Below, one piece after another: positions 1 to 16,147 of a DNA stretch of 64,000 nucleotides. The notes under the pieces were generated by a model. That model was not told where the DNA came from. It saw only the letters and a program-made list of their open reading frames with translations, and did not search any database. Source of the stretch: Prochlorococcus sp. AG-388-D03 (lineage in GTDB: Bacteria > Cyanobacteriota > Cyanobacteriia > PCC-6307 > Cyanobiaceae). The position numbers were made by a program, and so were the translations under genes. The stretch's first letter is position 1, and the number at the start of each line of letters is the position of its first letter. The stretch covers positions 1 through 64,000 of the forward strand of contig QCGN01000003.1 of the NCBI GenBank assembly GCA_003279875.1, in the 5' to 3' direction.

Positions 1-171
1 AATTAAATCCTTCTTTTGATATTTAAGTATTAAATCTACTAATGCATTCTTAGTTTTTCGACTATATAAATTTACCGATAAATTCTTTGCTTCAAGACGT
101 AGTTCTCTTAGGGTTAATTTGAGTAATTGATCTTTTTTTCTTTTCACATAATCTATTTGATTTACAATCAT
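1..171 (-). CDS. Hypothetical protein, N-terminal part, truncated by window edge (MIVNQIDYVKRKKDQLLKLTLRELRLEAKNLSVNLYSRKTKNALVDLIL...)
   Basis: Open reading frame from ATG at complement(169..171) to the window edge; SAP/Rho-N-like helical character is only an impression. Confidence 0.5.
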   Translation of the reverse strand, partial: MIVNQIDYVKRKKDQLLKLTLRELRLEAKNLSVNLYSRKTKNALVDLILKYQKKDLI

Positions 172-299
172 TTTTTTTAAACTCCTTATGAAAATTGCAT
201 AAAATTTATGGAAAAAAATTAAATGAACTTATGACTTACTCAGCTACAAATTCTCTATCAGATTTTGGTATCTCCTAATTATGATTTAATGAGTTTTAT

Positions 300-840
300 T
301 AAAGGTTAACCTTCATTCCTTTAAGTTTTTTACACCCATAGTCCACCGCTTTTTTGAGTTTGAATTAGATGCCAAATCAATCTCGCTAAGAGATAAAAAA
401 AAATTAGTTTTGTTTGTATTAAAGCAAATAAAGAGAGATTGACTCCCGCCTTTAGGAAACAATCTCTTTCACTTAGTTATGTGAAGGAATAAATTACAAC
501 TCACCTAAATCATTGATCCTTGCTGTGAATTTAGTTTGCTGCTTAAACCAATCTAATACTCTTCTCTGGTGGACTTTCGATCATTTCTAATCCCTCCTTA
601 CGATTAATAGGAATTTAGTACGAATAATTACTTTTGTATATCAGTGAATATGCTGATTTATTTAAAACTTAGTATTAAAAGAAATTCCTTATTTTAATTA
701 CTAATTAGGAGGAAAAAATTAAAATTCAAAAACCCCTTATTCTGTCCCAAAAGTAATTTAATGACTTACAAAACTACTCATAATTCTGATAAAAAAATAG
801 TTTCAAATAATTATATTCCTGAATACCTATAGAAAAATAC
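300..840 (+). repeat. Direct repeat copy 1, decayed, with internal deletion relative to copy 2 at 10955-12004
   Basis: Shared blocks: CTTCATTCCTTT..., AGAGATTG...CCTTTAGGAAACAATCTCTTTCACTTAGTTATG, GGACTNTCGATCATTTCTAATCCCTCCTT, AAATTCCTTATTTTNATTACTAATTAGGAGGAAAAAAT. Confidence 0.85.
432..469 (+). ncRNA. Hairpin in repeat copy 1 with loop ACTCCCGCCTTTAGGAAA; possible small RNA or terminator
   Basis: AGAGATTG / CAATCTCT stem; same loop core CCTTTAGGAAA in copy 2. Confidence 0.4.
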
Positions 841-988
841 TTCAAAAATTCAAAAAATTTTATTAAAAATCATTTTAATAAGGATTTTTAATAATTAATT
901 TAAGTCACTCAAATTCAACCTACCTACTGGGGTCAACAACCTTGCAAATATGTCGTATATATGAGTACTTACAAATTTCTGCTAAAAA

Positions 989-1231
989 TCAAGAGGCTCT
1001 CTTAAAAAAGTTTTTCCTATTTCTATCACTCATCTTATTATATCTTTGGTTTATTTCTGATATAAAAGCCCTAGATTTTATTGCCTTTTCAATTTTTTCT
1101 TTCCGTAGTTTTAGATCTCTCACTTCCTCTATTGACATTAGATTATTCTTTCCTTTGCAATTGAAAAGATTTAAAAGTGATTTAAAAGGATTTTCCATGT
1201 ACCAAATTAACAACATCAAGGGATATAGCAA
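989..1231 (-). CDS. Hypothetical basic/helical protein, probable start at internal MENPFKSLLNLF
   Basis: ORF track; amphipathic charged C-terminus looks more protein-like than the overlapping + strand ORF. Confidence 0.4.
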   Translation of the reverse strand: MLYPLMLLIWYMENPFKSLLNLFNCKGKNNLMSIEEVRDLKLRKEKIEKAIKSRAFISEINQRYNKMSDRNRKNFFKRAS

Positions 1232-1555
1232 TAGAGAAAAATAGCTAAATTCAAAGGAAATAAGGATAGTTTAAGAACCACCAACGACTAACCCTTTTTA
1301 CTCCCAAGTCGAAAAAATTACTAGAAAAATGTAAGCAATGAAGTATCAAACTTTATTACCTAAGAGTCTTTGTTTTTTTAATATTAATGACTAATAAATA
1401 GTTCGTTATGATATCAATGTTTTGATTATTTAATATAGGAATTTTTTATATTGCAAATAAACTTCAAATAAGGTTATTTAGATCACTTACTAAATTCTCG
1501 TGGAGAAAGCTTTCGTAAATTTCTTTTACTGGTTACTGATGAGATCAATCCAATC

Positions 1556-1741
1556 TCATTTTGGTGAATCTTTGGTTCCAGTAAAAGTTCCTTCTAATTC
1601 AATTAAACCTTTTACAAAATAAGTATTTTCTACTTTGTTTTTATTCAACATAGAGTGCGAATCAGATGAAAGTAGATAATTAGTAAGAGACTGCCGTCCA
1701 ATTCTCAATGGAATCCTCATCCATCTCCTAATCTTTTTCAA
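1556..1741 (-). CDS. Hypothetical protein
   Basis: ORF only. Confidence 0.3.
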   Translation of the reverse strand: MKKIRRWMRIPLRIGRQSLTNYLLSSDSHSMLNKNKVENTYFVKGLIELEGTFTGTKDSPK

Positions 1742-1797
1742 TTTATATCAGCTGTCAATCGAATCAACTATAGAAGTGCAACTAGTAAGCTTTTTAT

Positions 1798-2157
1798 CTA
1801 TTCCCAACCATTTTCTGACTGTTGAATAATCCATTGTGAGAGAATCATATCTTCCCCTTCCTTTAATTTATGTTTATAACCTTTCATATAACCAATCCCC
1901 TCATTTGCAATTTTTGCTATTGAACCCACATCTGCTATTCCTCTCTTTTCAAGATCTTCAAGTTTTAATGATTTAGATCCTTTAAGAACAACCGATCCAC
2001 CTCTTACATGGCAGCCTGCACAAACATTTTTAAAAATTGTATCTCCACTTTTTACATCAGATGCTAAAAGATATCTACCTTGCAAAGAGTTTTGAAAAAT
2101 AATTATTAAAGTTATCAAAGGAAGTACAAATAGAAATTTAAATATTTTCATTTGCAT
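1798..2157 (-). CDS. Class I cytochrome c (cytochrome c6-like)
   Basis: Signal-like N-terminus, heme motif VCAGCH, C-terminal QWIIQQSENGW. Confidence 0.8.
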   Translation of the reverse strand: MQMKIFKFLFVLPLITLIIIFQNSLQGRYLLASDVKSGDTIFKNVCAGCHVRGGSVVLKGSKSLKLEDLEKRGIADVGSIAKIANEGIGYMKGYKHKLKEGEDMILSQWIIQQSENGWE

Positions 2158-2171
2158 TAGATCACCTAGAA

Positions 2172-2510
2172 TTAATTTAGCTTGTAACTAGTATTAATTG
2201 TTTTAACTATCGATTTTTTAGGATCTTTATTTGGATAACAATTAACAATTCTATATTTTCCTCCTTTTCTAGCAGTTTCAACAACTGTAAATTGAACAAA
2301 TTTATCTTTTTCAGTACTCGAAGAATCCTTAATTTCTACTTTAATGATTTCTTCATTTTTACTTTCAATTAATCTGGATTTGCCTCCACAAACAAGAAAA
2401 GCATTTTCTTTAGTTAAAGAAAATAATTTATTTTCATCAGTAATGGATAATTCATCTTTCGTACTACAAGAGGTAATAAAAAGTATAGTTAAAAATAAAA
2501 ACTTTTTCAA
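2172..2510 (-). CDS. Putative lipoprotein, hypothetical
   Basis: MKKFLFLTILFITSCST lipobox-like N-terminus. Confidence 0.55.
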   Translation of the reverse strand: MKKFLFLTILFITSCSTKDELSITDENKLFSLTKENAFLVCGGKSRLIESKNEEIIKVEIKDSSSTEKDKFVQFTVVETARKGGKYRIVNCYPNKDPKKSIVKTINTSYKLN

Positions 2511-2661
2511 AATATGTCGCTAAGAATTTTTTCTTATTTTATGATATCTCATATTTTTGTTTATAGTATCTCCTTTTTTTGAATCTGCCCATCCTAATCA
2601 AGGAATGATGCAAGCAAATTTTAATTAAAATATCTGAAGTTCATAAGATCATTTGATCTTT

Positions 2662-4692
2662 CTATGGTCTCCAATAATTTATCAATAGGAAATCAATTAA
2701 CTCTTTTGCAGATTTATCTGACAAGTGATTGTTGTCCCTAAAACACTCTAAATAAGAGTTCATATTTCTTCCACAACTCTTATCAAGAATTTCTAATGGA
2801 TTTACAAATATAATATTTGTAAATGAACCATCTTTGATTGAATTTGCGAGTATTTTATTTAGTTTCTTTGCGTTACCTGCTTCTTGTAGAAGGGTCTTTA
2901 GGGCGGGATCATATGGTCGGAACCATTCTTTGGTAAGTTCCATGTCATTGTTTCGATATGCACTTCCGATTATATAGATCAAAATTGATTTTTCATATGC
3001 TTTTTTTGATAGTCGATTCAATCCAGCCATGTATAGGTTTATTTTTGTTGAAGGATCTGATACACGGTTCTTATTTTTATTGAATATGTTGTGTCTTGTG
3101 TATTTAAGATTGTATCCACCAAGATGACTAAGATGATAATTGTAAATAATAATCGAGTCCCCAGCTTTTAGATCTTGCAAGATTTTATTTTCCGCATTTA
3201 TCAGAAACTTATTACATTCACGAGGAAAAATCCCAAAAGGTGGTAAAGGAAAGGGGCAGCCAGCATATGAATAATTAATGACTCGGAATCCTGAGTTAGT
3301 CAGAGTTTCTTCTGCGTTGAGAAGTGAGATTGCTTGACTGTCGCCTACAAACGCTAAAGTTCTTTGATTTCTTGATTGTCTGATGACTGGATATTTGCAT
3401 TCGCTGAAAAGTAATTTTAATTGTTCTGAAGAGAAGTTTTTATGTCCAATACATTTTTCCCAAGTCAGAGAAGACTTACCTAGTCTGAGTTGTGTAAAAT
3501 CTTCTCGATTAGTAGAAATAATTTTTTTGCCAGCATAAAGTTTGCCTTTCAGAGGTCTCTCAAGTGCAATGAGAAAACTAGAAAGGACAACTATAACTCC
3601 TCCTCCTAAGATAAGTATCTTCCATCGTTCACCTAACCATTCTCCCTTAAGAACTGGCGTTTCAATATATCGATAAGAAGTAATTGCTAAACAAAGTATC
3701 AGAACAATTTGGAAAGGAACTGACCACCAATGAATACCAATCGTCCATCGACTGATTGAAAGAACTCCCCAATGCCATAGATAAAGTGAATATGATATAT
3801 CACCTATATAAACGACTTTAGGATGAGTAAAAAATTTGTATGCTCTTCTTTGTTTCTGCAAGCATGCGATAAGAACAGATGATAATAAAATTACAGCAAC
3901 TCTCGACGCTGTTGCCCAAGATATAGGAAAATACATTACGCCTAAAATCAAAGCAAGTACAAAAAGCGGTTCCACCTTCTCAAGAAAGTGTTCAAAAGAT
4001 TTTACTTTCTGACAACAAATAAAGAGCAAACATCCTGAGGCCATTTCCCAAAACCTTGTTTGCATTTGTAAAAAGGCTGCTTCTTGGTTTATTGGATAGA
4101 GATATAGAAATCCAATAAAAGATACAATTCCTAGTCCTCCAACTGTAAGAAATAAATTACGAGTACCATTCTTAGTTTGACGTCCAAATCCAGAAAACCA
4201 AATGATATATGGGAATAGGATATAGAATTGCTCTCCAACTCCTAGAGACCATGTATGTGCGAAAACATTCAATTCTGTTAATTTTGCAAAATAATCCTGT
4301 GAATATTGAAGCAGGTAAAGATTTGATAATCCAAACAACGAAGTCAAACCTGTTCTCAGGTTTATAATTGGTTTTGGATTGAATAAGCAGATTGCAATGC
4401 TCATAATCAAAACAAAAAATGATAGTGCTGGTAATAATCGCTTTATTCTTCTTTCATAAAATCCACTGATGAAATCTTCGAAGTTTTTACTGGGTCTTTG
4501 ATAAAGAGATGATGTTATGACGAATCCTGAAATAACAAAAAAGATATCAATCCCAAGGTATCCATTTGGCAGTATTTCTTTATTGAAATGATTTATGATC
4601 ACAGCGACTATTGCAAATGCCTTAAGACCATTTATCTCTGGACGATAGAGACTTTTTATAGTTGATTTATTTTGTGTAAATTTCACTAGCAA
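2662..4692 (-). CDS. OafA-like acyltransferase 3 with C-terminal SGNH domain
   Basis: YRPEINGLKAFAIVAVIINHFN...GYLGIDIFFVISGFVIT; multiple TM helices; C-terminal FVGDSQAISLL...DNNHLSDKSAKEL. Confidence 0.9.
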   Translation of the reverse strand: MLVKFTQNKSTIKSLYRPEINGLKAFAIVAVIINHFNKEILPNGYLGIDIFFVISGFVITSSLYQRPSKNFEDFISGFYERRIKRLLPALSFFVLIMSIAICLFNPKPIINLRTGLTSLFGLSNLYLLQYSQDYFAKLTELNVFAHTWSLGVGEQFYILFPYIIWFSGFGRQTKNGTRNLFLTVGGLGIVSFIGFLYLYPINQEAAFLQMQTRFWEMASGCLLFICCQKVKSFEHFLEKVEPLFVLALILGVMYFPISWATASRVAVILLSSVLIACLQKQRRAYKFFTHPKVVYIGDISYSLYLWHWGVLSISRWTIGIHWWSVPFQIVLILCLAITSYRYIETPVLKGEWLGERWKILILGGGVIVVLSSFLIALERPLKGKLYAGKKIISTNREDFTQLRLGKSSLTWEKCIGHKNFSSEQLKLLFSECKYPVIRQSRNQRTLAFVGDSQAISLLNAEETLTNSGFRVINYSYAGCPFPLPPFGIFPRECNKFLINAENKILQDLKAGDSIIIYNYHLSHLGGYNLKYTRHNIFNKNKNRVSDPSTKINLYMAGLNRLSKKAYEKSILIYIIGSAYRNNDMELTKEWFRPYDPALKTLLQEAGNAKKLNKILANSIKDGSFTNIIFVNPLEILDKSCGRNMNSYLECFRDNNHLSDKSAKELIDFLLINYWRP

Positions 4693-4718
4693 ATCTCCAT
4701 AAATCTTGAGAATTTATT

Positions 4719-4900
4719 TTATTTATTAGAGAATAAGTCATAAAGAAATCCTGAAACCACTAAAAAATGTCTACACCAATATAACCACTACTAAAAAATG
4801 TAAAATTTAAATGACCTAAAATAATTACCAATACTGCAATAGCTTTTATTATTTCTATTTTTTTTCTGTAGAAATCTTTTGATATGATATTGAAATTCAA
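4719..4900 (-). pseudogene. Frameshifted, truncated N-terminal remnant of an acyltransferase 3 gene
   Basis: Minus strand gives YRKKIEIIKAIAVLVIILGHLNFTFFSSGYIGVDIF*, then in the shifted frame VVSGFLYDLFSNK; aligns with the N-terminus of the 2662-4692 protein. Confidence 0.75.
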
Positions 4901-5019
4901 TTTTTATAGTTAAATTTTAATTAACTTTATGATAAATCATATAAAGATTTATTCCTAATTTAATTTATAATGAGATATTTAAAGAAGAAATTAAAAAATT
5001 TATCAATTAAAATTATTTT

Positions 5020-5169
5020 ATGAATAATAAATTTGAAAAGGGAAAGATATTAAAAACAACAATTTTGATTTTACCTGCGATTATTTTTATGTTATTAATA
5101 TCTTTTAATTCTTTAGGTAATAATCAAGAAAAAGATGAAAACCGCTTTGAATATAAAAACCCTAATTGA
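5020..5169 (+). CDS. Single-TM small protein, 49 aa
   Basis: MNNKFEKGKILKTTILILPAIIFMLLISFNSLGNNQEKDENRFEYKNPN. Confidence 0.45.
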   Translation: MNNKFEKGKILKTTILILPAIIFMLLISFNSLGNNQEKDENRFEYKNPN

Positions 5170-5272
5170 ATTTAATCAGCTTTGAAGCCATTATTTTTTT
5201 TTATAAATTTAAGGCTGTTATATTTGAAATTTTCTAGTTAAATATTTATTAGAAATCTTTTTAGAAATTACA

Positions 5273-6595
5273 TTGAAAAATATCTTTATTATATTCATTT
5301 TTGCTGTATTTTATTATTTCACAACCAATGAGAGTTTTTGGAAAGTTGGTTTGGTATTTGTAATATCTTTAATCTTATTAATGCTTTTATATTATTTTCA
5401 GAGGAAAAATTGTTCTTTTCAATACTTATTAGTAGTTTCTTTTTTACTCCTTTTACCATTAACTTGGACTACTCAATTTAAATTACTTTATTTACCTTTT
5501 GGATATCAATATATTTATATATCCTTAATTTCAAGCTTGATTTATATTGATTCAAAAAAATTATATTTAAAAAATTCGTTTAGAGAATTGTTACAAGGAT
5601 CATTTATTGCGTCAATTGCTCCTGGTTCTTATTTATCGGGACCTTCTGCAACTTTTAAAGAGATTAATAGTTTAGATAAAAGTTTTTTTGGATTACCAAT
5701 ATTTGGGAAGTTACAATTTTCAAATATAAAATTAGCTATATCTGGAGGCTTAAGAATATCTCTAGGTTTTTATCTAAATACTCTAGATCCTCATATATTA
5801 AATAATGATTTTTTATTAACTGAAAACTCAATAATATTTAAATTATTTATGATAATTTTATTTGGTTTCTTTAACTTTTGGAGATACTATTTATTATTTT
5901 CTGGTGCAAGTGATCTCGCCAAATCATTTTTATCAATATTTGATATTAGAGTAATTGATAACTTTAAGAATCCTGAAATAGCAATTTTTTATCATGAAAT
6001 TTGGAGTAAATGGCATTTGAATATTACTCAAAGAATAAGAGAATTTTTATATACTCCATTAACTCTATTTATTTTAAGGAATTTTAAATTAGTCAATAAT
6101 CAAGTAAAATTTTTATTATTTGAGGGACTTCCAGTTGCTGTTTTATTTGCAGTTTTAAGTTTATGGCATGGAGGAAAAAGTTTAGACTTTATATTCGCGG
6201 GATTCAGCACATTTTTTACACTGAGTTCTAGAGCATTAAGTCAAAATTTTTATTTTAAAGAAAAAGTAACTAATATCATTCTTGGCAGGGAATTCATTAG
6301 ATTTCTTAGTTTGTCATTGTTCGGGTTAGTTTTAGGGATATATGATTTTAGAAATCAATTACCAATTTTAGATAATGATATTTCAAGTCTTTTTTTATCC
6401 TTTTTAGTTTCAATTTTTATATATATTTATTATAGGTTAAAAATTATATTTCTTGAATTAAATGAAAATAGTGGCAAACTTAAATATTTAGAGATTGTTA
6501 TATGCTTAGTTGAAAGTATTGGGATTTTTTATATAAATTTATTTTTAGTATTAGATTTAAAGCAAATAAACGAATTTATTTATTTTGCTGGCTGA
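5273..6595 (+). CDS. MBOAT-family membrane O-acyltransferase (DltB/AlgI-like)
   Basis: Polytopic; WSKWHLNITQRIREFLYTPL and SLWHGGKSLDFIFAGF with the MBOAT histidine. Confidence 0.85.
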   Translation: MKNIFIIFIFAVFYYFTTNESFWKVGLVFVISLILLMLLYYFQRKNCSFQYLLVVSFLLLLPLTWTTQFKLLYLPFGYQYIYISLISSLIYIDSKKLYLKNSFRELLQGSFIASIAPGSYLSGPSATFKEINSLDKSFFGLPIFGKLQFSNIKLAISGGLRISLGFYLNTLDPHILNNDFLLTENSIIFKLFMIILFGFFNFWRYYLLFSGASDLAKSFLSIFDIRVIDNFKNPEIAIFYHEIWSKWHLNITQRIREFLYTPLTLFILRNFKLVNNQVKFLLFEGLPVAVLFAVLSLWHGGKSLDFIFAGFSTFFTLSSRALSQNFYFKEKVTNIILGREFIRFLSLSLFGLVLGIYDFRNQLPILDNDISSLFLSFLVSIFIYIYYRLKIIFLELNENSGKLKYLEIVICLVESIGIFYINLFLVLDLKQINEFIYFAG

Positions 6596-7871
6596 ATTCT
6601 GGTTTTAATAAATCACATTTAACACCCAATAAACCTTGACTGAATATATGGTTAGATATTTCTTTAGCAATTTCAAATGATCCATTATCTGTAAAATGTG
6701 AATCATCATAATAAAAATGAGAATTCATATGTTCTATTTTGAATAATTTTTCTTTAATTGCTGCTTTTAAAGATAGTGGTACAAAATTACCATTTATATT
6801 GTATTTTTTCTGCTCCTTGTTTAAAAAAGTTCTTAAATCTACTAAATTCAAACAACTATTTTTTGAGATTTGGTTTGTATAGGTATGATTGATATATTTC
6901 CATTTGTGATCTGATGAGCTGGAATTCTTTAAATCAGGTTGAATAAAAACAATATGTTTCCCACCTAAATCATTTATTACATTATTTATTAGAAATTGAT
7001 TATAAAAAAATGCTTTTGACTGCATATAAATAAACTCTTTATCATTTGTATTAAATTTTTTATCTCCAAAGATTTGATCATTTTTTTTATGGGAAATTAA
7101 TTCATTTAAATTCCCAAATAATTGTTGATATATTTTGCTTACTATAATTCTTAAATTATATTTAATATTAGATTCGATTTTTGTTAATTTTTCTAATTTT
7201 TTTTCTAAAATATTATATTGTTCTGGAGCATTTATTAATATAAATCTACCTTCTTTTGTTTTAAATAAGTTACTTTTACTGCTAAAATAAATATTATTAA
7301 TATCAGCAGTTCCTGTAAATGAAATTGATTTTACACTTTTGCAATGTAATTGATTCAAACTATACAAAGCATTAAAAATAGAAATTAATTCCTGTCTACT
7401 ATTCCAAGAGGGTATAGCTAAATTATAAATTAAATATTCATCGCCAATTATGTTGTGAAGTTGAGATGGAATTGTTTTATTATCTTTGGTAACTCCTACT
7501 CCAAATGTAGCTGAAGATCCAGTAAAGAAAATACATTTTTTTTTCCGATCAATAAATTTGTTATATGGGTTTTTTCTGAAATTATATTTATTTAATGATA
7601 AAACTGAACTCTCAGAGTTAAGGAAGTTGTTAGATCCTTTTTGTATAGAGAAATAGTAAGTTGGATTTATTTTAAGCCTGCTAGACTCTAAATAGGGATC
7701 GTAATTTTCTTCATAGTAGTTTATTTCTTGGAGTTTGTTATGAAAATCTGAATCTTTATTTTTTTTATAATTTATTTTTCCTAAATAAAAATTGACTCCT
7801 ACTAAAAGAGTAATTGCATAAAAAAATACAGTAGTAATTGCTCTAATTTTTGATATATTTTCTAATTTCAT
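6576..7871 (-). CDS. SGNH/GDSL-like membrane-anchored protein (DltD/AlgX-like role)
   Basis: N-terminal TM; FFTGSSATFGVGVTKDNKTIPSQL block I; C-terminal DDSHFTDNGSFEIAKEI. Confidence 0.75.
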   Translation of the reverse strand: MKLENISKIRAITTVFFYAITLLVGVNFYLGKINYKKNKDSDFHNKLQEINYYEENYDPYLESSRLKINPTYYFSIQKGSNNFLNSESSVLSLNKYNFRKNPYNKFIDRKKKCIFFTGSSATFGVGVTKDNKTIPSQLHNIIGDEYLIYNLAIPSWNSRQELISIFNALYSLNQLHCKSVKSISFTGTADINNIYFSSKSNLFKTKEGRFILINAPEQYNILEKKLEKLTKIESNIKYNLRIIVSKIYQQLFGNLNELISHKKNDQIFGDKKFNTNDKEFIYMQSKAFFYNQFLINNVINDLGGKHIVFIQPDLKNSSSSDHKWKYINHTYTNQISKNSCLNLVDLRTFLNKEQKKYNINGNFVPLSLKAAIKEKLFKIEHMNSHFYYDDSHFTDNGSFEIAKEISNHIFSQGLLGVKCDLLKPEFSQQNK

Positions 7872-7986
7872 TTATATAATTCTTTAAGTTATAGTTATTT
7901 TAATTTTATGATTTTACTGTAAGAAGTTGAAAGGTAAGAATTATTTAAAATGTTTTAATTCAAACTGATATAAATTTAAAAATTTA

Positions 7987-8238
7987 TTACATATATTTAT
8001 TCATCAATTTAACAAGATCACCAATGGTATTAAGATTTTGAATTTCATTTATAGGAAATTGAATTCCTAATTCTTCTTCTATAGTAAATAGAATTTGAAC
8101 ATGATTTAAGCTATCCCAACCTTCCACATCAGGTGCAGTCATATCCATTGATAAAGATATTTTTTCTTTTCTCAATATATTTGAAACGATTTTTTCAAGC
8201 AAGATTAATTCCTTAGACAAATCTTTTTCCCTTAACAC
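7987..8238 (-). CDS. Acyl carrier protein
   Basis: DVEGWDSLNHVQILFTIEEELGIQF with phosphopantetheine-site DSL. Confidence 0.9.
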   Translation of the reverse strand: MLREKDLSKELILLEKIVSNILRKEKISLSMDMTAPDVEGWDSLNHVQILFTIEEELGIQFPINEIQNLNTIGDLVKLMNKYM

Positions 8239-8282
8239 ATATCTAGGTTCATTATAATATCAATAAGGGTATTTAATCGCAA

Positions 8283-10019
8283 TTAATTTTTTTTTGAATT
8301 TAAAAATAATTCTTTACTTTTTAGAAAGTTTTCCTTATTAGCCAGTGTTGAGTAATCAAGCTTTTCATTAAAGTAGTTATTTTCAGCAAGATCTCTCATG
8401 ATTCTTCTCATTATCTTCCCGCTTTGTGTTTTTGGCAGTTCATTAAAAAATTCAATTCTAGATGGTAAATGATACTTAGATAATTTATTTTCGATTGTTT
8501 GTTTGATTTTTATTATAATCGGGTTCACTTCGCAAATTATTTTTGAAGGGGTTAGGTATAAAACAATTTTTTCTCCTGTTAATGAGTCTGAGGCTGAAAC
8601 AGCACAAGCTTCTTTAATTAAATCTAGATTAAGACAAATACTTTCAATCTCAGAAGTTGAGATTCTGTGACCAGATACATTGATAACATCATCACTCCTT
8701 CCTCCAATATATAAATAACCATCATCATCCAAATACCCTACATCATGTAATCTAAAGTAACCAGAATCAGTAAAGTATTTAGATCTCTTGTCGGAGACAA
8801 CCATATTAAAAATACCTGACCAATAATTCTTGACAAGTAGTTCATTAGGTTGAATATTTTCTTTTGCAAGTTGCTCAGGATTAATTAAATCTTTTGCTTG
8901 AAATAAACCAAGTTCCTTTAATGGTTTACCTACACATGAATAATCTTTGGGAGCTAAATCTTCATCCCTAGGGGCTACGAGTATACCCCCAGTTTCTGTT
9001 TGAAAATAAGTATTAACAATTGATTTTCTTGATGGCTCAAAGAAGTCAATCGCCCACTTCCCTACATGATGTGCAAGAGGTTCTCCACATGAGCCTATTC
9101 TCTCTATCTTAAAATCTTTACTTGAGTAATTAGAAAGCTTTTCATGATCCTTTGTCATACTCTTTAATAGTCTTAAAAGAGTTACTGATGTATAAAAACA
9201 TTCTGGTCTAATTTGATTTAAATATTTTCCAAGAATCCTTGGTATTGATATCAAAGTAGGTATTTCATTAATAATCGAAATTCCTCCTGAAAGAAGAGGT
9301 CCATAAAATGCATATGTATGGCCGTTAATCCATCCTGCATCAACCGCTGTGAAAATTTTTGAATATCTTTTTACACCAAAAAAATATTTAGTTGTGATTT
9401 TTGCATATTTAAGATATTCCCTTACACCATGAATAATAGCTTTTGGCTTTCCTGTTGAACCTGAAGTAAAAAGAGTAAAAAGATTATAATTATTTTTATA
9501 ATTAATGACTTTATCTTTTTGAGGAGGTAAATTATCTATCTTCTCAATATCTATAACAAGAATTGATGTTTTCACTACTTTATTTTTTGCTAATGCTGAT
9601 TCAATCTTTTTTTGAAGATCTTTCTTGCAAACAATAATATCAGGCTTAAAAATATCTAATCTTTGATAAATAGCTTCTGGAGATAAGTCCTCAAAGCATA
9701 TACAGTGATGCGCTCCAAGATAAAGACTTGCGAGCATTAATATAACTGACTCTTCAGATGCACTGATTATCCCCATAATTTTTATTTGGTCGTCAGAATT
9801 TTTATTTTGTATATTTTTTTTTATTTCTGAAGCAAAATTTCTAGATAAATGAATACATTTTTTTTTATTTAATTTTTTAATTTCTCCACTTTTTTTTATA
9901 ATTTCGAAAATTGTATCAGACTCTTTAAATTTTCTTAAAAGATTAAAATAGACATTTTCTTCTATATTTTTCTCGTTTTTAATCTTCCAAGATTTGGGCG
10001 GTTCAATTATATATTTCAT
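8283..10019 (-). CDS. AMP-dependent acyl ligase, acetyl-CoA-synthetase-like
   Basis: FTSGSTGKPKAIIHG, DAGWINGHTYAFYGPL, YFQTETGG, DVINVSGHRIST, LPKTQSGKIMRRIMR. Confidence 0.9.
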   Translation of the reverse strand: MKYIIEPPKSWKIKNEKNIEENVYFNLLRKFKESDTIFEIIKKSGEIKKLNKKKCIHLSRNFASEIKKNIQNKNSDDQIKIMGIISASEESVILMLASLYLGAHHCICFEDLSPEAIYQRLDIFKPDIIVCKKDLQKKIESALAKNKVVKTSILVIDIEKIDNLPPQKDKVINYKNNYNLFTLFTSGSTGKPKAIIHGVREYLKYAKITTKYFFGVKRYSKIFTAVDAGWINGHTYAFYGPLLSGGISIINEIPTLISIPRILGKYLNQIRPECFYTSVTLLRLLKSMTKDHEKLSNYSSKDFKIERIGSCGEPLAHHVGKWAIDFFEPSRKSIVNTYFQTETGGILVAPRDEDLAPKDYSCVGKPLKELGLFQAKDLINPEQLAKENIQPNELLVKNYWSGIFNMVVSDKRSKYFTDSGYFRLHDVGYLDDDGYLYIGGRSDDVINVSGHRISTSEIESICLNLDLIKEACAVSASDSLTGEKIVLYLTPSKIICEVNPIIIKIKQTIENKLSKYHLPSRIEFFNELPKTQSGKIMRRIMRDLAENNYFNEKLDYSTLANKENFLKSKELFLNSKKN

Positions 10020-10388
10020 ATTTCAAATTAATTTTATAAACAAATTAATAGTAAATATATAATTATTTTATGTAAAGTCTGAATATTAAATAGTAATTGA
10101 AGTCTTTTAATAATTTATAGAAAAATTTTTTCCAATATTAAAAAATCTCAACCAATCAATAAACAACTCTTACTTATTTCGAGAACATAAAACTGACTCT
10201 ATTCATTCTTATTTAAATTGATTGGATGAAGGCAGATTTTTTTGATATTGGCTTCTTTTATCAATATGCTTCTTTCATTGTTGATGAGTGTGATCATAAA
10301 AAAAGGAGCTAATTGCTTCTTAGTTTAGATTTAGGTTCAATCAATCTCTCTTCGAGCTTTTCAGATTGTTTTATAAAAAATTATCAAT

Positions 10389-10544
10389 TTATCCATAACA
10401 AGAGAAGGCGCCTTTAAGAATATTTTTAAAAATTGGTGATTGACCTAAGGCATATAAGAATAAGGAAGATGTGGCAAGAGTAAGGACCAACTTGGATGCT
10501 CTGTTAACTTTTAGGTTTGAAACTTTGGTAAATGCTGAATTCAT
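10389..10544 (-). CDS. Small protein, 51 aa, one hydrophobic segment
   Basis: MNSAFTKVSNLKVNRASKLVLTLATSSLFLYALGQSPIFKNILKGAFSCYG. Confidence 0.45.
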   Translation of the reverse strand: MNSAFTKVSNLKVNRASKLVLTLATSSLFLYALGQSPIFKNILKGAFSCYG

Positions 10545-10669
10545 TTTTTAAATTTATTTTAGATTTACTTTAGCTCTGTTCACAAAATATTCTGCAATAA
10601 AATTTACCGTAGATAAATTTTATTGCTGCAGCTGTCGCTGTTCTTCAATTTTAAATTTATTGAATCTGG

Positions 10670-10837
10670 TTATAAAAATTTTAAAGGATAGTCAACATTA
10701 GCTGGTTCCAAATGTTTTGTATAACAAGCGGTCGTACAGTCCAAACCTTCGCTGTTGATACTACATGAATTTATGCATTCGAAGAAATTTTCCAAAGCAT
10801 CTGAATTTTTGATGTTTGATAAAATGTCTTTTTTCAT
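10670..10837 (-). CDS. Twin-CX3C microprotein, probable start at MKKDILSN
   Basis: FFECINSCSINSEGLDCTTACYTKHLEP; GGAG upstream of the proposed ATG. Confidence 0.6.
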   Translation of the reverse strand: MKKDILSNIKNSDALENFFECINSCSINSEGLDCTTACYTKHLEPANVDYPLKFL

Positions 10838-11090
10838 AATTAATTCTCCAATCTGCAGAAGATTTAGCAAATTTTTCCTAATAAAGTCAAATTTTTGGTA
10901 AAGTACCTATCTTTTATCTTGTTAACTTTCGTACTTGATATTTATAGTTTCTAAGTGGAGATTAATCTTCATTCCTTTTAAATTAATTATTCACATAGAC
11001 TACCTCTTTTCAAAGATTGAATTGAGTATTTTTGATTATCGCAAATTGATTATAAATTTGAGAGTTTTTAGTTGAGATAAAGCTAATAAA

Positions 11091-11128
11091 AAAGAGATTG
11101 AATCCCACCTTTAGGAAACAATCTCTTT
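11091..11128 (+). ncRNA. Hairpin in repeat copy 2 with loop AATCCCACCTTTAGGAAA; possible small RNA or terminator
   Basis: 10-bp stem AAAGAGATTG / CAATCTCTTT. Confidence 0.4.
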
Positions 11129-11466
11129 CACTTAGTTATGTATAGGAAATAATTAACAACTTATCTAAATCATTTATCCTTGCTGTTAATTTAGTTGGCT
11201 GCTTAAACCAATCTAATAGACTTCTCTGGTGGACTATCGATCATTTCTAATCCCTCCTTTTATTGAATTAAAATTTAGATCGAATTACATTTTTTGTATA
11301 TCCGTAATTATGCTGATTTATTTTAAACTTAGTATTAAAAGAACCTCTTATTTTTGATTTTAAGGTAAATCATAGTTAATGCTTGATATTTTTTTAGGTA
11401 TTCATACGCTTGATTTTTATATATCAAATGTACTATATAATACCCAAATCAAAGGAGGTTAATCAA

Positions 11467-11628
11467 ATGACCAACTTAGGATTAGAGCTACTTATATTGA
11501 CTGTCTTACTTATTTATTTTGGGGTTTTCATGACTCAAAGTATTTATAAACAATATGAAAAAGCCTTTCTACGCAAAACTATTTTTTGCAGCAAATCACC
11601 AATTGACCCCTATTGCATAGCTGAATAA
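11467..11628 (+). CDS. TM microprotein MTNLGLELLILTVLLIYFGVF...
   Basis: Strong SD AAAGGAGGTTAATCAAATG; paralog at 25494-25595. Confidence 0.65.
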   Translation: MTNLGLELLILTVLLIYFGVFMTQSIYKQYEKAFLRKTIFCSKSPIDPYCIAE

Positions 11629-11667
11629 TAGGATTTAAAACATTTCAAAAAACAACGGAGGTTAATC

Positions 11668-11850
11668 ATGTCTTGCGGAAATTCCTATAAAAATAAGATC
11701 CAAAATGCAATCCATTCTTTTTTCGATAAGTTTGCAGCTCATAATTCACACTCAAGGGCATTAACTGATGAGCAAATGGAATGCATGCAATTTGGAATCT
11801 GTTCATTTGCACCAAAAGCATTAGAAGAAATTCCTTATTTTCATTACTAA
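11668..11850 (+). CDS. Small hypothetical protein MSCGNSYKNKIQNAIHSFF...
   Basis: SD GGAGGTTAATCATG; coherent amphipathic composition. Confidence 0.6.
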   Translation: MSCGNSYKNKIQNAIHSFFDKFAAHNSHSRALTDEQMECMQFGICSFAPKALEEIPYFHY

Positions 11851-11863
11851 TTAGGAGGAAAAA

Positions 11864-12004
11864 ATGAAAATTCAAAAACCACTTACTTTGCCCCAAATTT
11901 ACTTTAATGACTTTCACAACTACTTTAATAATTCTGATGAAAAATTAGTTTCATATACTTATATGCCTGAATACCTTAAGAAAACTAATTCAAAAAAAAC
12001 TTAA
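11864..12004 (+). CDS. Small protein MKIQKPLTLPQIYFNDFHNYFNNSDEKLVSYTYMPEYLKKTNSKKT
   Basis: SD AGGAGGAAAAAATG; decayed copy at about 712-840. Confidence 0.55.
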   Translation: MKIQKPLTLPQIYFNDFHNYFNNSDEKLVSYTYMPEYLKKTNSKKT

Positions 12005-12197
12005 AAAAATCCTTAAACATTTTTAACTTTTTATGACTACATGAATCAAACCTAAAAAAACGATGCAAGGAGTAAATATTTTATTTATTTTGTATTTATT
12101 TTTTAGTAATTCTTAGATAAACATATAAACCAATACCAAAAATAAAAACATCTAGATAGATATGCCAAGGAGGAAATATTTGATGCAGTAATTCCAT

Positions 12198-12329
12198 TTA
12201 ATTTTCTTTTCCCCAAACCCTAGCAAGCTTTCTTAATAAAGTTTTTACTTCCATATCTGAAGCTCCAGATTCGTCTTGGGATTTATTACAAATTTCTTTA
12301 ATTTTCTCATATGCCTGCTCTATTAATAT
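12198..12329 (-). CDS. Possible small protein without canonical start (ILIEQAYEKIKEICNKSQDESGASDMEVKTLLRKLARVWGKEN)
   Basis: Open frame behind a conserved GGAGGTTAATCAT leader; start codon unclear, possibly decayed. Confidence 0.35.
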   Translation of the reverse strand: MLIEQAYEKIKEICNKSQDESGASDMEVKTLLRKLARVWGKEN

Positions 12330-12894
12330 CGTTTTATGATTAACCTCCTTGTTGTATTTACGACTACTAGATAAAAATCTTTTACAGATCTCGATGAGAA
12401 TATAATAAATTTTGGATTAGAGTTTTAATGGTTATTACGTTCACCTCATTAATTTATAAGTACTTGGGAAAATTTTAAAAATATATTTGACTTCAAAGGA
12501 TAAATACTAATTCATCCTATTGGCTTAATGAAAATAATAACGTGTTAATCTCTTTATCGGCTTTATAGCAATCTAGAATTTTATATCTTAATAATTCAAC
12601 ACCGCAACAACTATTAGATCTCGTGAATAAAGAAGAAAGAAGGCAAAGATTTTAATCTATGACTAGCCGGCAAAGGCGAGTATTGATTCTGAAGAAGATG
12701 GAAGCTAAAGGAAAAGAAGTTGGAAATGGAGTTCAAGGTAAAAAATATGAGAATGGCAGGTTTATGAGTTTATACATATTGCTAATTGCTTTCCAGGGTT
12801 AAGAGGCAAAGATAAAAAATAAAACTAAATAATTTAATACTTGACGTTACATTCTATGTGAACCTATAGTAATAGTACACTTGTATTATCTAAA

Positions 12895-13188
12895 ATGACC
12901 CTAGGAGGAGCTAATGTTTGGACTAATTTTTCTTATGGTTATCGTAATGAGTCCCCAAGTGGTTGGTTACTTAAGCCCGACCGTAGCAGACTAATTTTAT
13001 TTACAAAAAATAAGAAATCTGCAAGAAATAATATCAGGATTTTTGCTCACACATATTATACGAATGATATGTGTGAGCCAACGTCAATCAAATCATCAAG
13101 TCAAATGTATTTGGACGATGCCTGGGATAAATGGCATGACCTTCAATTAGAAGGTTGGACTTTCGAAGAGCTTGAATTACCTGAATAA
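12895..13188 (+). CDS. DUF1651-like protein
   Basis: SPSGWLLKPDRSRLILFTKNK...DAWDKWHDLQLEGW. Confidence 0.6.
   Translation: MTLGGANVWTNFSYGYRNESPSGWLLKPDRSRLILFTKNKKSARNNIRIFAHTYYTNDMCEPTSIKSSSQMYLDDAWDKWHDLQLEGWTFEELELPE
13045..13078 (+). repeat. Perfect 12-bp inverted repeat inside the DUF1651-like ORF
   Basis: GCTCACACATAT TATACGAATG ATATGTGTGAGC. Confidence 0.9.
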
Positions 13189-13914
13189 CTTAAAAATAAT
13201 TAAAAAGAAACTATTTACAAAAGATTGAAGAGTATCTGTTCAAGAACAATCAAAAATACAAGCAGAATTTTTTTATGGTTTAGTAATTAAGGGAGATGAA
13301 TAATGGAAGATCCTCAGATATGAGATTATTTCGAGTTAGATTAAGAACTGAAAACAAATAGTATAAAAGTTTGTCTCTAATTCAGTCACTTCAGGTACAG
13401 AATGAAAGATTCTTTTTTTAATTATTAAGACTTTTTTAATTTCACAAAAGATTCATTCATAGTGATTACTACTTAAATAAAGGATGTAGATTTTGGAAAA
13501 AAAGATATGAGGATATTTGTACCTGAAGCTTCCTGAAATTATTAAAGATTAAACTTCCCAATCAATGTCAAAGTAATCAAAAAACTTTTACTCCTCTTGT
13601 AAACAACCTCTCCTTTATATATCTTAAAGTTCTTAGTTATGGCATTTTTCTTTAACCAACTTTTCTACTCTTTTCTGTTTCTTATTCATTTTTTAGTCAT
13701 CTTAAAAGTTAAATAGGTATTGCTATCAAGTAATAATTTTCTATTTGCAGACTAAGCAATTGCTACCGCATGCTTATTTATCAATTAACCTAAAATATAG
13801 TTTTGTTTTTTAGAGATTATAAATAAAAGTAATAGAACTAAATTGATAGTCATAAAAAAGGTCTAATCCAGTTCCTTTTAGATCAATTGTTTAACAAGAT
13901 CTATTCTAAAAATA

Positions 13915-14094
13915 TTAAGCAGCTATATCTTCTTCATTTTCAATTTCTTTATTTTTAATTATTCCGTTTTCGATCAAACCATCAACTATTTTTTTAGAAA
14001 GAAATTCAAGATCATCAGAACCTGATGGATCGAAAAGATCAGCTAATATAGTTGCCACCAAGAAGTCATCCAAATCAGAAGCCTTTTTACTCAT
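13915..14094 (-). CDS. Acidic small protein, 59 aa
   Basis: MSKKASDLDDFLVATILADLFDPSGSDDLEFLSKKIVDGLIENGIIKNKEIENEEDIAA. Confidence 0.55.
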   Translation of the reverse strand: MSKKASDLDDFLVATILADLFDPSGSDDLEFLSKKIVDGLIENGIIKNKEIENEEDIAA

Positions 14095-14622
14095 TATTTT
14101 AAAATATACATATCATTTATAACTTGATCTTGGAAAAATAAAAAGATCTAAAATTTTAGAAACTATAGAGTTGAGAGTAAACATTAATAAGCTTTTCATA
14201 TTATCACCAAGTTCGATTGTATAAATGGTATCTAAATACTTATTTTTTATCCTTTTACTTTGCCTAAGGCAATTCTATTTCTGTGCTTAATTTTTATAAA
14301 TCAGAAGAGTTCATTAAAAAAATGTGATTTATTTTAATTCATATTTACAAATTCATGATAAGTGACAAAAACTATTTATGCATTTCTTCAATAAATAAAC
14401 AATTAACATAATTCTTAAATCCTTAAAAGATAAAAAAAAAGGTATGAATGATTAATTTTTTTCATAAAAAAGTTCAAGCAAAGAAAAAAATATAGACAAA
14501 TTTTTAAGTATTTTATGGAGAAAAGAAGTTTTTGATTTCAAATATACGTTAAAAATTTAGATTACTTACTTTACACTCCTTACAAAATTGCTACGTTTCA
14601 TATATTAAGCTTAATTTTGACA

Positions 14623-14769
14623 ATGTTTTTGAATTATCTTCCTAGCGAAATTATAGAAGTAATTGAACTAACTATTATATTTTCAGGTTTAGTTGGAACT
14701 ATTTTATTTTTATTATTTACAGCAGATAATCCAAATACAAAGAATCTGTATATGAAAAAGGCGAGATAA
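14623..14769 (+). CDS. TM microprotein, 48 aa
   Basis: MFLNYLPSEIIEVIELTIIFSGLVGTILFLLFTADNPNTKNLYMKKAR. Confidence 0.5.
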   Translation: MFLNYLPSEIIEVIELTIIFSGLVGTILFLLFTADNPNTKNLYMKKAR

Positions 14770-15173
14770 TAAAATCTTATTACTGATTTATTTTGAAAAT
14801 TAAGTTAAGCAAATCCACTAATTAACAAAAGACTTACAACTACTTATATAAATTGATTGAAATACATATTTGTCAGAAAATAAATAACTCTAGAAATAAA
14901 TAGACCTTACCTTAGGAATAATAGAAGGTAGATCTAATTTTGTTTTATCTGTATTTATTTGTAAGAAGTTATAAGTAAATCTATTAGAAGATATAAGTAA
15001 ATTTCCTTAGGTATTAATAATTCATTTACTTTAATAATTTCAAAATCAGAATAGAAAACACAACCTTCTGGGTTGTCAAATTTTTTACAATTGTATCAAT
15101 GTAAGAAAAAGGGTAATCAAATTTTAGAAAGAACTAATTGCTGCACATTTGAGGTCGAAAGTTAATACTATAT

Positions 15174-15446
15174 CTATGAGTAGACTTTACCCACTATAGG
15201 ACCAGCTTCTTCATCGGTAAATACTGGTGTGGTTTCCCATTTTAGATATTCACCCCACTCAGCCGCATGTTGATAAATTGCTTTTGGATCATCAGTCTTT
15301 AATACAATCCAACCCTCTAAAGATCCTGGTGCATGATACCTTCCAATCATTTCAACTCCTGGATAATCTCCTCCTCCAGCTAGAAATTTTTCCGCACCTT
15401 TTTGATGATATCCAGTCTTAAATGACCAATGTTGAACGTAAAGCAT
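15174..15446 (-). CDS. DUF3303-like protein
   Basis: MLYVQHWSFKTGYHQKGAEKFL...GWIVLKTDDPKAIYQHAAEWGEYLKWETTPVFTDEEA. Confidence 0.7.
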   Translation of the reverse strand: MLYVQHWSFKTGYHQKGAEKFLAGGGDYPGVEMIGRYHAPGSLEGWIVLKTDDPKAIYQHAAEWGEYLKWETTPVFTDEEAGPIVGKVYS

Positions 15447-15702
15447 TTTTTATTTTTGTTTTGGCTATTAATTAATAGCAATAAAAATGATTCTTGAAAA
15501 CATAGTTTGAGGAAAATCCTCTTCACTTTATTTAGACTTTAAAATTAATATTGTCATAAAAGCCAGTGGTTAGTTATGCAGGCTGCTTTTTTTAGTGAAT
15601 AAGCTAGAAAAAATATTCTTAACAATAATAAAGAGTGAATTTTGCTTTTATTTAGTTGTTATGATCTAGATTTGTTCATCAAACTAAGTAATTTTTAAGT
15701 AA

Positions 15703-15939
15703 TTAACTTAATGTATCTTCTTGTGCCCATGCTTTATGTTTTTCATCTAAATCCGTAACTGAGTTTCTTTGGAAGGTTAACTTCAACTGATTTTGAGCCA
15801 GCTGATCTTTAGCAACAGTCATATCATTCGAATAAAAATTCAATGAAGTTACTTTTTTCACTTTTTTATTTTCCAAAAAAATTCTCCATGTATTAATTTC
15901 ATAATATTTATAAAATACTTTTAGAAGAAATCGCCGCAA
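15703..15939 (-). CDS. Small protein of the DLDEKHKxW family
   Basis: LNFYSNDMTVAKDQL...VTDLDEKHKAWAQE; paralog at 29604-29765. Confidence 0.5.
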   Translation of the reverse strand: MRRFLLKVFYKYYEINTWRIFLENKKVKKVTSLNFYSNDMTVAKDQLAQNQLKLTFQRNSVTDLDEKHKAWAQEDTLS

Positions 15940-16147
15940 TTTAAGGTTTTATTTTGCTTTGCTTTACAGATTTAAAAACACTTACTTTAAAAGAAGGCTT
16001 TAATTTTCAAGATTCTATTAGATAATAATCTTAAATATTATTTTTTAATGTCTTATTTTTAAAGTATCATTCTATTACTAATCATGAAACTTTAAATGAA
16101 AACTATTATTTCTAATTTAGGATAAATGATCCAGAGATGGATCTATA

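Follow-up and report, generated by a model that had tools for sequence, protein, structure and literature searches.

A putative carrier-protein-dependent MBOAT/SGNH surface acylation cassette in Prochlorococcus

Introduction

Four neighbouring genes of the cyanobacterium Prochlorococcus sp. AG-388-D03 recall the Dlt pathway of Gram-positive bacteria, and cyanobacteria are not known to have teichoic acid. What, then, could such genes acylate, and from which donor? They lie in a stretch of 64,000 nucleotides (contig QCGN01000003.1, bases 1-64000; the whole stretch is called the window below) and encode an Acs-like AMP-forming ligase, a stand-alone acyl carrier protein (ACP), an SGNH-like protein and a DltB-like MBOAT acyltransferase. 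We propose that they probably form a surface acylation system in which a carrier protein feeds the MBOAT/SGNH pair. The proposal draws on features observed directly in the DNA: gene content, recurrence, motif conservation, the loss of CoA-binding residues in the ligase, and a signature at helix HC of the MBOAT.

Organization of the cassette

All four open reading frames are real and lie where the initial annotation had placed them. On the minus strand, the order is ligase (578 aa, 8283-10019), ACP (83 aa, 7987-8238, with a GWDSL phosphopantetheine site), and SGNH protein (431 aa, 6576-7871, with one N-terminal membrane anchor); the gaps are 44 nt between ligase and ACP and 115 nt between ACP and SGNH. 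The MBOAT gene (440 aa, 5273-6595) runs the opposite way, on the plus strand, and converges with the SGNH gene so that the two 3′ ends overlap tail to tail by 20 nt. The four genes are therefore not one operon; the initial annotation did not mention the opposite strand. The TTG start of the MBOAT at 5273 is uncertain, residue 37 being the first internal Met.

The host genome is 80% complete. Nothing points to contamination: in G371, a genome of the same genus, an MBOAT/SGNH pair stands beside genes that are also present in the window.

The ligase and its carrier protein

The proposed acyl-ACP ligase matches the Pfam families PF00501 (AMP-binding, 110 bits) and PF13193. Its best NCBIfam match is AcsA, at 298 bits, against only 77–81 bits for the DltA models, in agreement with its first description as Acs-type rather than DltA-type. 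G026 (as a second copy), G306, G129, and G238 encode homologues with 49–57% identity; G184, G290, G233, and G196 supply a more distant set. A branch with support 1.0 sets ten ligases of the cassette type apart from AcsA. An ACP gene lies within 1.5 kb (≤1.5 kb) in seven of these ten loci, compared with none of 21 canonical Acs loci, and in an eighth (L041) it is two genes away. The loci without an intact ACP are those of G129, which is at a contig edge, and G238, where a degenerate ACP-like domain is fused to a phosphopantetheinyl transferase. At L044:6957-10066, a related ligase with a C-terminal extension overlaps a gene that combines an ACP-like domain lacking the serine with a phosphopantetheinyl transferase.

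Compared with Salmonella Acs, whose numbering is used here, the equivalents of catalytic Lys609, Asp500, and Arg515 are present in all ten ligases. The window ligase additionally retains those of Arg526, likewise catalytic, and Ser523. It shares with AcsA its overall sequence and adenylation core; it differs in its missing Arg191/Arg194 loop, its remodelled acyl pocket, and its position beside an ACP gene. The window ligase has lost this loop altogether, and the other nine have lost it or carry an altered version. In Acs, Arg191 touches the CoA phosphates (PMC10455477). Replacement of the equivalent Arg193 in the Methanothermobacter enzyme by Ala gave a protein that was not saturable with CoA, and Arg193Gln lowered efficiency about 12,000-fold (PMC10455477). 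The initial annotation had named loading of CoA instead of the ACP as an outcome that would overturn it. The CoA-binding arginines are indeed gone, and a preference for the ACP over CoA is what the sequence leads us to expect.

One alternative is a ligase that works as an ordinary short-chain acyl-CoA synthetase, beside an ACP from an unrelated pathway. The Acs-like sequence and the retained Ser523 and Arg526 equivalents would fit such an enzyme; we nevertheless consider this explanation very improbable, given the lost Arg191 loop, the separate, canonical AcsA already encoded in the host genome (G000:C21), and the ACP that adjoins this ligase group in several unrelated contexts.

The window ACP matches PF00550 (PP-binding) with 28 bits, above the cut-off. 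The only other PP-binding protein found in the host genome is AcpP, on contig C1, which is distinct from the cassette protein; the view of a dedicated ACP, separate from that of fatty-acid synthesis, was thus borne out. One phosphopantetheinyl transferase was found in the host genome. The identity of the window ACP to MBOAT-linked ACPs (37–38%, vs. 20–30% to others) was not used as evidence, the signal being too short.

The MBOAT, its probable shuttle tail, and a candidate donor signature

The MBOAT has no significant Pfam match. Its sole NCBIfam match is DltB (22 bits, E 7e-5); the DltB model TIGR04091 is matched in all three homologues, and a profile of the three finds DltB structures (6bug, E 1.2e-7; 8jem). 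Residues H248 and H299 align with DltB His289 and His336, and the histidine noticed at the outset is supported. The closest protein to the cassette MBOAT, DltB, is known to take its acyl group from a carrier protein, which supports a carrier-fed system.

A key mechanistic element had been missed in the initial annotation: a C-terminal acyl-shuttle motif with its tyrosine is fused to the MBOAT. The last six codons (6575-6592, plus strand) read FIYFAG, with Tyr437 as the proposed acyl-carrying tyrosine; both homologues end in FLYFAN, so that the tail is conserved across about 40% identity. The tail resembles FXYXXF, the shuttle motif of DltX and PatA; PatA acetylates itself on the tyrosine of its tail, from which PatB takes the acetyl group (PMC12148441). 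By analogy, the F-[IL]-Y-F-A-[GN] tail is likely an acyl shuttle.

The carrier DltC docks on helix HC of DltB through Met302, Val305, Ile306, Met309, and Lys312 (PMC11035591). The corresponding segment is PLGG[NS][RK] in ordinary cyanobacterial MBOATs, TPLTLFILRN in the window family, and MRLVIVLMRN in DltB. The neighbourhoods of 78 further MBOAT places were taken, giving a set that covers loci L126-L203, L045, L053, L057-L060, L050, and the window, and an ACP was counted as a neighbour within 2.5 kb. None of 68 cyanobacterial MBOATs with PLGG[NS][RK] has an ACP neighbour, compared with 10 of 16 without the motif (Fisher p 3e-9, or 4e-8 excluding the window family; these values ignore relatedness); with L058, where FkbH and ACP lie slightly farther away, the count is 11 of 16. 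The fused tail is kept on both sides, in 15 of 16 MBOATs without the motif and 64 of 69 with it.

A control is available in the host genome itself. On contig C22, an ordinary MBOAT (PF03062, 120 bits) with a PIGGNK motif and the tail FLYFNF is followed by an SGNH-like gene, and ligase and ACP are absent there. This is a probable acetyl-CoA-type pair.

The SGNH protein

The proposed periplasmic acyltransferase has no significant Pfam or NCBIfam match, DltD included. Its motifs G118-S119-S120, W156-N157, and D389-H392 are invariant in three homologues, CgnD and further SGNH enzymes are weakly matched in both sequence and fold, and a single hydrophobic stretch covers residues 8-31. On these motifs and weak matches, the SGNH assignment is well supported, short of proof.

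Recurrence in related genomes

Recurrence was searched in 400 genomes of the family. Beyond the window, MBOAT orthologues (>200 bits) occur only in G026 and G371, and in all three an SGNH homologue sits tail to tail with the MBOAT. In G026, all four genes are consecutive (locus L045), with the ligase (7939-9747), the ACP (about 9749-10006), and the MBOAT (10030-11403) on the plus strand and the SGNH gene (11478-12743) on the minus strand, which answers the check for co-occurrence proposed at the outset. Relative to ligase and ACP, the MBOAT/SGNH pair is inverted with respect to the window, and the L045 ligase belongs to a different branch, 40% identical to the window ligase. In G371 (L053) the MBOAT/SGNH pair is kept, and the contig stops 39 nt past the SGNH start; a gene that resembles a phosphopantetheinyl transferase, judged from its sequence, adjoins the pair there (L053:8590-9237, minus strand). 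A fourth genome, G892, has an SGNH homologue at a contig start. The cassette is rare and patchy in its distribution. Scans of viral contigs with the MBOAT and ligase alignments gave no matches, searches of phage and plasmid collections brought up nothing beyond distant Acs or partial MBOAT matches, and no description of the four-gene cassette was found in the literature searched.

The same data bear on whether the two halves of the cassette work together. Ligase and ACP might feed another transferase, for example in cytoplasmic N- or O-acylation of a sugar, while the MBOAT/SGNH pair, fed by acyl-CoA, would be a chance neighbour in a variable region. Related ligase/ACP pairs do occur without the cassette MBOAT, for example with a PglD-like acyltransferase as neighbour in L042 or with TPR proteins in L047-L049, and the window MBOAT lies on the opposite strand. 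However, the four-gene link recurs in G026 with a ligase of another branch and in inverted order, and the MBOAT does not carry the motif of carrier-less MBOATs; we judge separate modules to be unlikely.

Other features lie near the cassette. An AT3-SGNH acyltransferase (OafA-like, 2662-4692, minus strand), a homologue of which is found close to the G129 ligase, was for that reason examined as a fifth component and was rejected, such genes being common (97/400 genomes). Upstream of the ligase, a 66-aa open reading frame (10670-10870, minus strand) encodes a Cys-bearing peptide with no significant family match, and positions 10900-15100, which separate the cassette from the first recognisable gene beyond it, hold short open reading frames only.

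Comparison with the Dlt and Pat systems

With the Gram-positive Dlt pathway (DltA/B/C/D/X), the cassette shares an adenylating ligase, a small carrier, an MBOAT with both histidines, and an anchored SGNH-type protein. It differs in its Acs-type ligase, its convergent genes, and a shuttle tyrosine fused to the MBOAT, whereas DltB uses a separate DltX. Among the reading frames of window positions 1-16000, no recognisable membrane microprotein ending in the F-x-Y of a separate DltX was found, and the credible match was the MBOAT tail itself. The ligase scores 77 bits against the DltA equivalog (cut-off 560) and the MBOAT 22 bits against that of DltB (cut-off 375); the ACP retains the DSL carrier site although it falls below both DltC cut-offs (23 bits against 68 for NF003464, 16 against 52 for TIGR01688). 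By curated cut-offs, the cassette is not a member of the Dlt family.

PatA/PatB and other acyl-CoA-type MBOAT–SGNH pairs (alginate, cellulose) share with the cassette an MBOAT with a C-terminal shuttle tyrosine and an SGNH partner. These pairs use acyl-CoA, with neither ligase nor carrier (PMC12148441). The window MBOAT has the histidine (H299) and the C-terminal tyrosine, and the partner has Ser-Asp-His in its invariant motifs, with weak evidence for the fold. On its genes, the cassette departs from an acyl-CoA donor without carrier, in that ligase and ACP are present and PLGG is absent. It is not a standard Pat-type pair, because a carrier is present and the motif of carrier-less MBOATs is absent. 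We read the cassette as one that would function in the manner of Dlt, with a shuttle arranged as in Pat. The Dlt-like division of labour first suggested for these genes gains from the recurrence, the ligase group, the DltB match, and the helix HC signature.

Other loaders and the nature of the acyl group

Among carrier-type MBOATs, those of the window and L045 have an Acs-like loader. Other cyanobacterial loci have different ones. FkbH, ACP, and MBOAT occur together at L057:6992-11507 and L058:34-4071, in the order FkbH-ACP-MBOAT-SGNH in L057, and possibly form a glyceryl-type surface acylation cassette. At L203:634-6068 and L177:4747-10063, an SGNH-like gene, an amino-acid adenylation enzyme (TIGR01733, above cut-off), an ACP, and an MBOAT are in tandem, the most Dlt-like arrangement among the cyanobacterial loci here. 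These four cassettes share with that of the window an ACP, an MBOAT with fused tail, and a non-PLGG helix HC, and differ in the loading enzyme and therefore in the acyl group, which we take to be glyceryl or an amino acid. At L202:4699-9948 and L189:427-6049, an AMP ligase, an acyl-dehydrogenase-like protein, a PKS-type ACP, and an MBOAT with a PLM[GN] motif are in tandem; from its size, the ligase is a probable fatty-acyl-AMP ligase. A similar PKS-type ACP adjoins the MBOAT in L187, L193, and L194.

Which group would the window cassette carry? In Acs, the acetate pocket comprises Trp414, Thr311, and Val386; the window ligase has Phe, Asn, and Cys at these positions, together with D411N and W413Y. 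All ten ligases have T311N, W414F, D411N, and Cys or Met in place of V386.

The initial annotation had favoured an acetyl or short acyl group, the former implying O-acetylation with its own donor pathway. Acetate-CoA ligase is the best model match of the ligase, and a small pocket is probably retained, residue 414 being Phe and not the Gly of medium-chain enzymes. We still hold acetyl itself to be improbable: T311N, V386C/M, and W414F mark all ten ligases, and AcsA proteins of the same lineage lack them; given the loader-free pair on contig C22, acetylation in this host would not require the cassette; and the parallel cyanobacterial cassettes have loaders for non-acetyl groups. Acetyl is less likely because the ligase pocket is changed and acetyl-CoA-type pairs need no loader. 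The group is probably a small non-acetyl acid, perhaps hydroxylated; more speculatively, the conserved Asn in place of Thr311 may point to an acid with a polar substituent.

Proposed mechanism

Every chemical step, like the acyl group and the acceptor, is something that we infer. In the cytoplasm, the Acs-like ligase would use ATP to convert a small carboxylic acid into an acyl-AMP, and would then acylate the phosphopantetheine arm of the adjacent ACP in place of CoA. The acyl-ACP would dock at the cytoplasmic helix HC of the MBOAT, which may hand the acyl group to its own tail tyrosine on the periplasmic side. The serine of the membrane-anchored SGNH protein would receive it from the tail, and this protein would then esterify a glycan outside the cytoplasm, with O-antigen or exopolysaccharide as the likeliest acceptor. 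An envelope glycan had been suggested from the start, and we infer it likewise.

Several points weigh against this mechanism. The complete four-gene set was found in two loci only, and the nearest ligases (49–57%) lie in loci without the cassette MBOAT; ligase and ACP may therefore serve other transferases too. Loss of Arg584 was dropped as an argument against CoA use, as cyanobacterial AcsA also lacks this residue. The MBOAT and SGNH proteins are weak family matches, and the final Phe of FXYXXF is replaced by Gly or Asn in the cassette tails. AlphaFold models built on three-sequence alignments are poor, with pLDDT 50 for the MBOAT, which makes its fold search meaningless, and pLDDT 41 for the SGNH protein, whose fold search is only suggestive. 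Lastly, the helix HC counts are not phylogenetically independent, they include loci fetched because of the motif finding, and part of the data used for counting had served to define the motif.

Implications

It is possible, at a little under an even chance, that the cassette exemplifies a general cyanobacterial class: carrier-fed MBOAT/SGNH surface acylation with a fused tail, interchangeable loaders, and a helix HC signature that separates carrier-type from CoA-type MBOATs. The window version would place a small non-acetyl acid, for example glycolate, lactate, or glycerate, on a Prochlorococcus surface glycan. If so, the helix HC signature would allow the donor type to be predicted from sequence alone. 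The carrier would uncouple surface acylation from the acyl-CoA pool in photosynthetic bacteria, and the cell could decorate its surface with acids that do not normally occur as CoA esters. Rare, patchy surface-modifying genes in Prochlorococcus are good candidates for genes that change grazing or the attachment of phages, and the cassette may have such a role.

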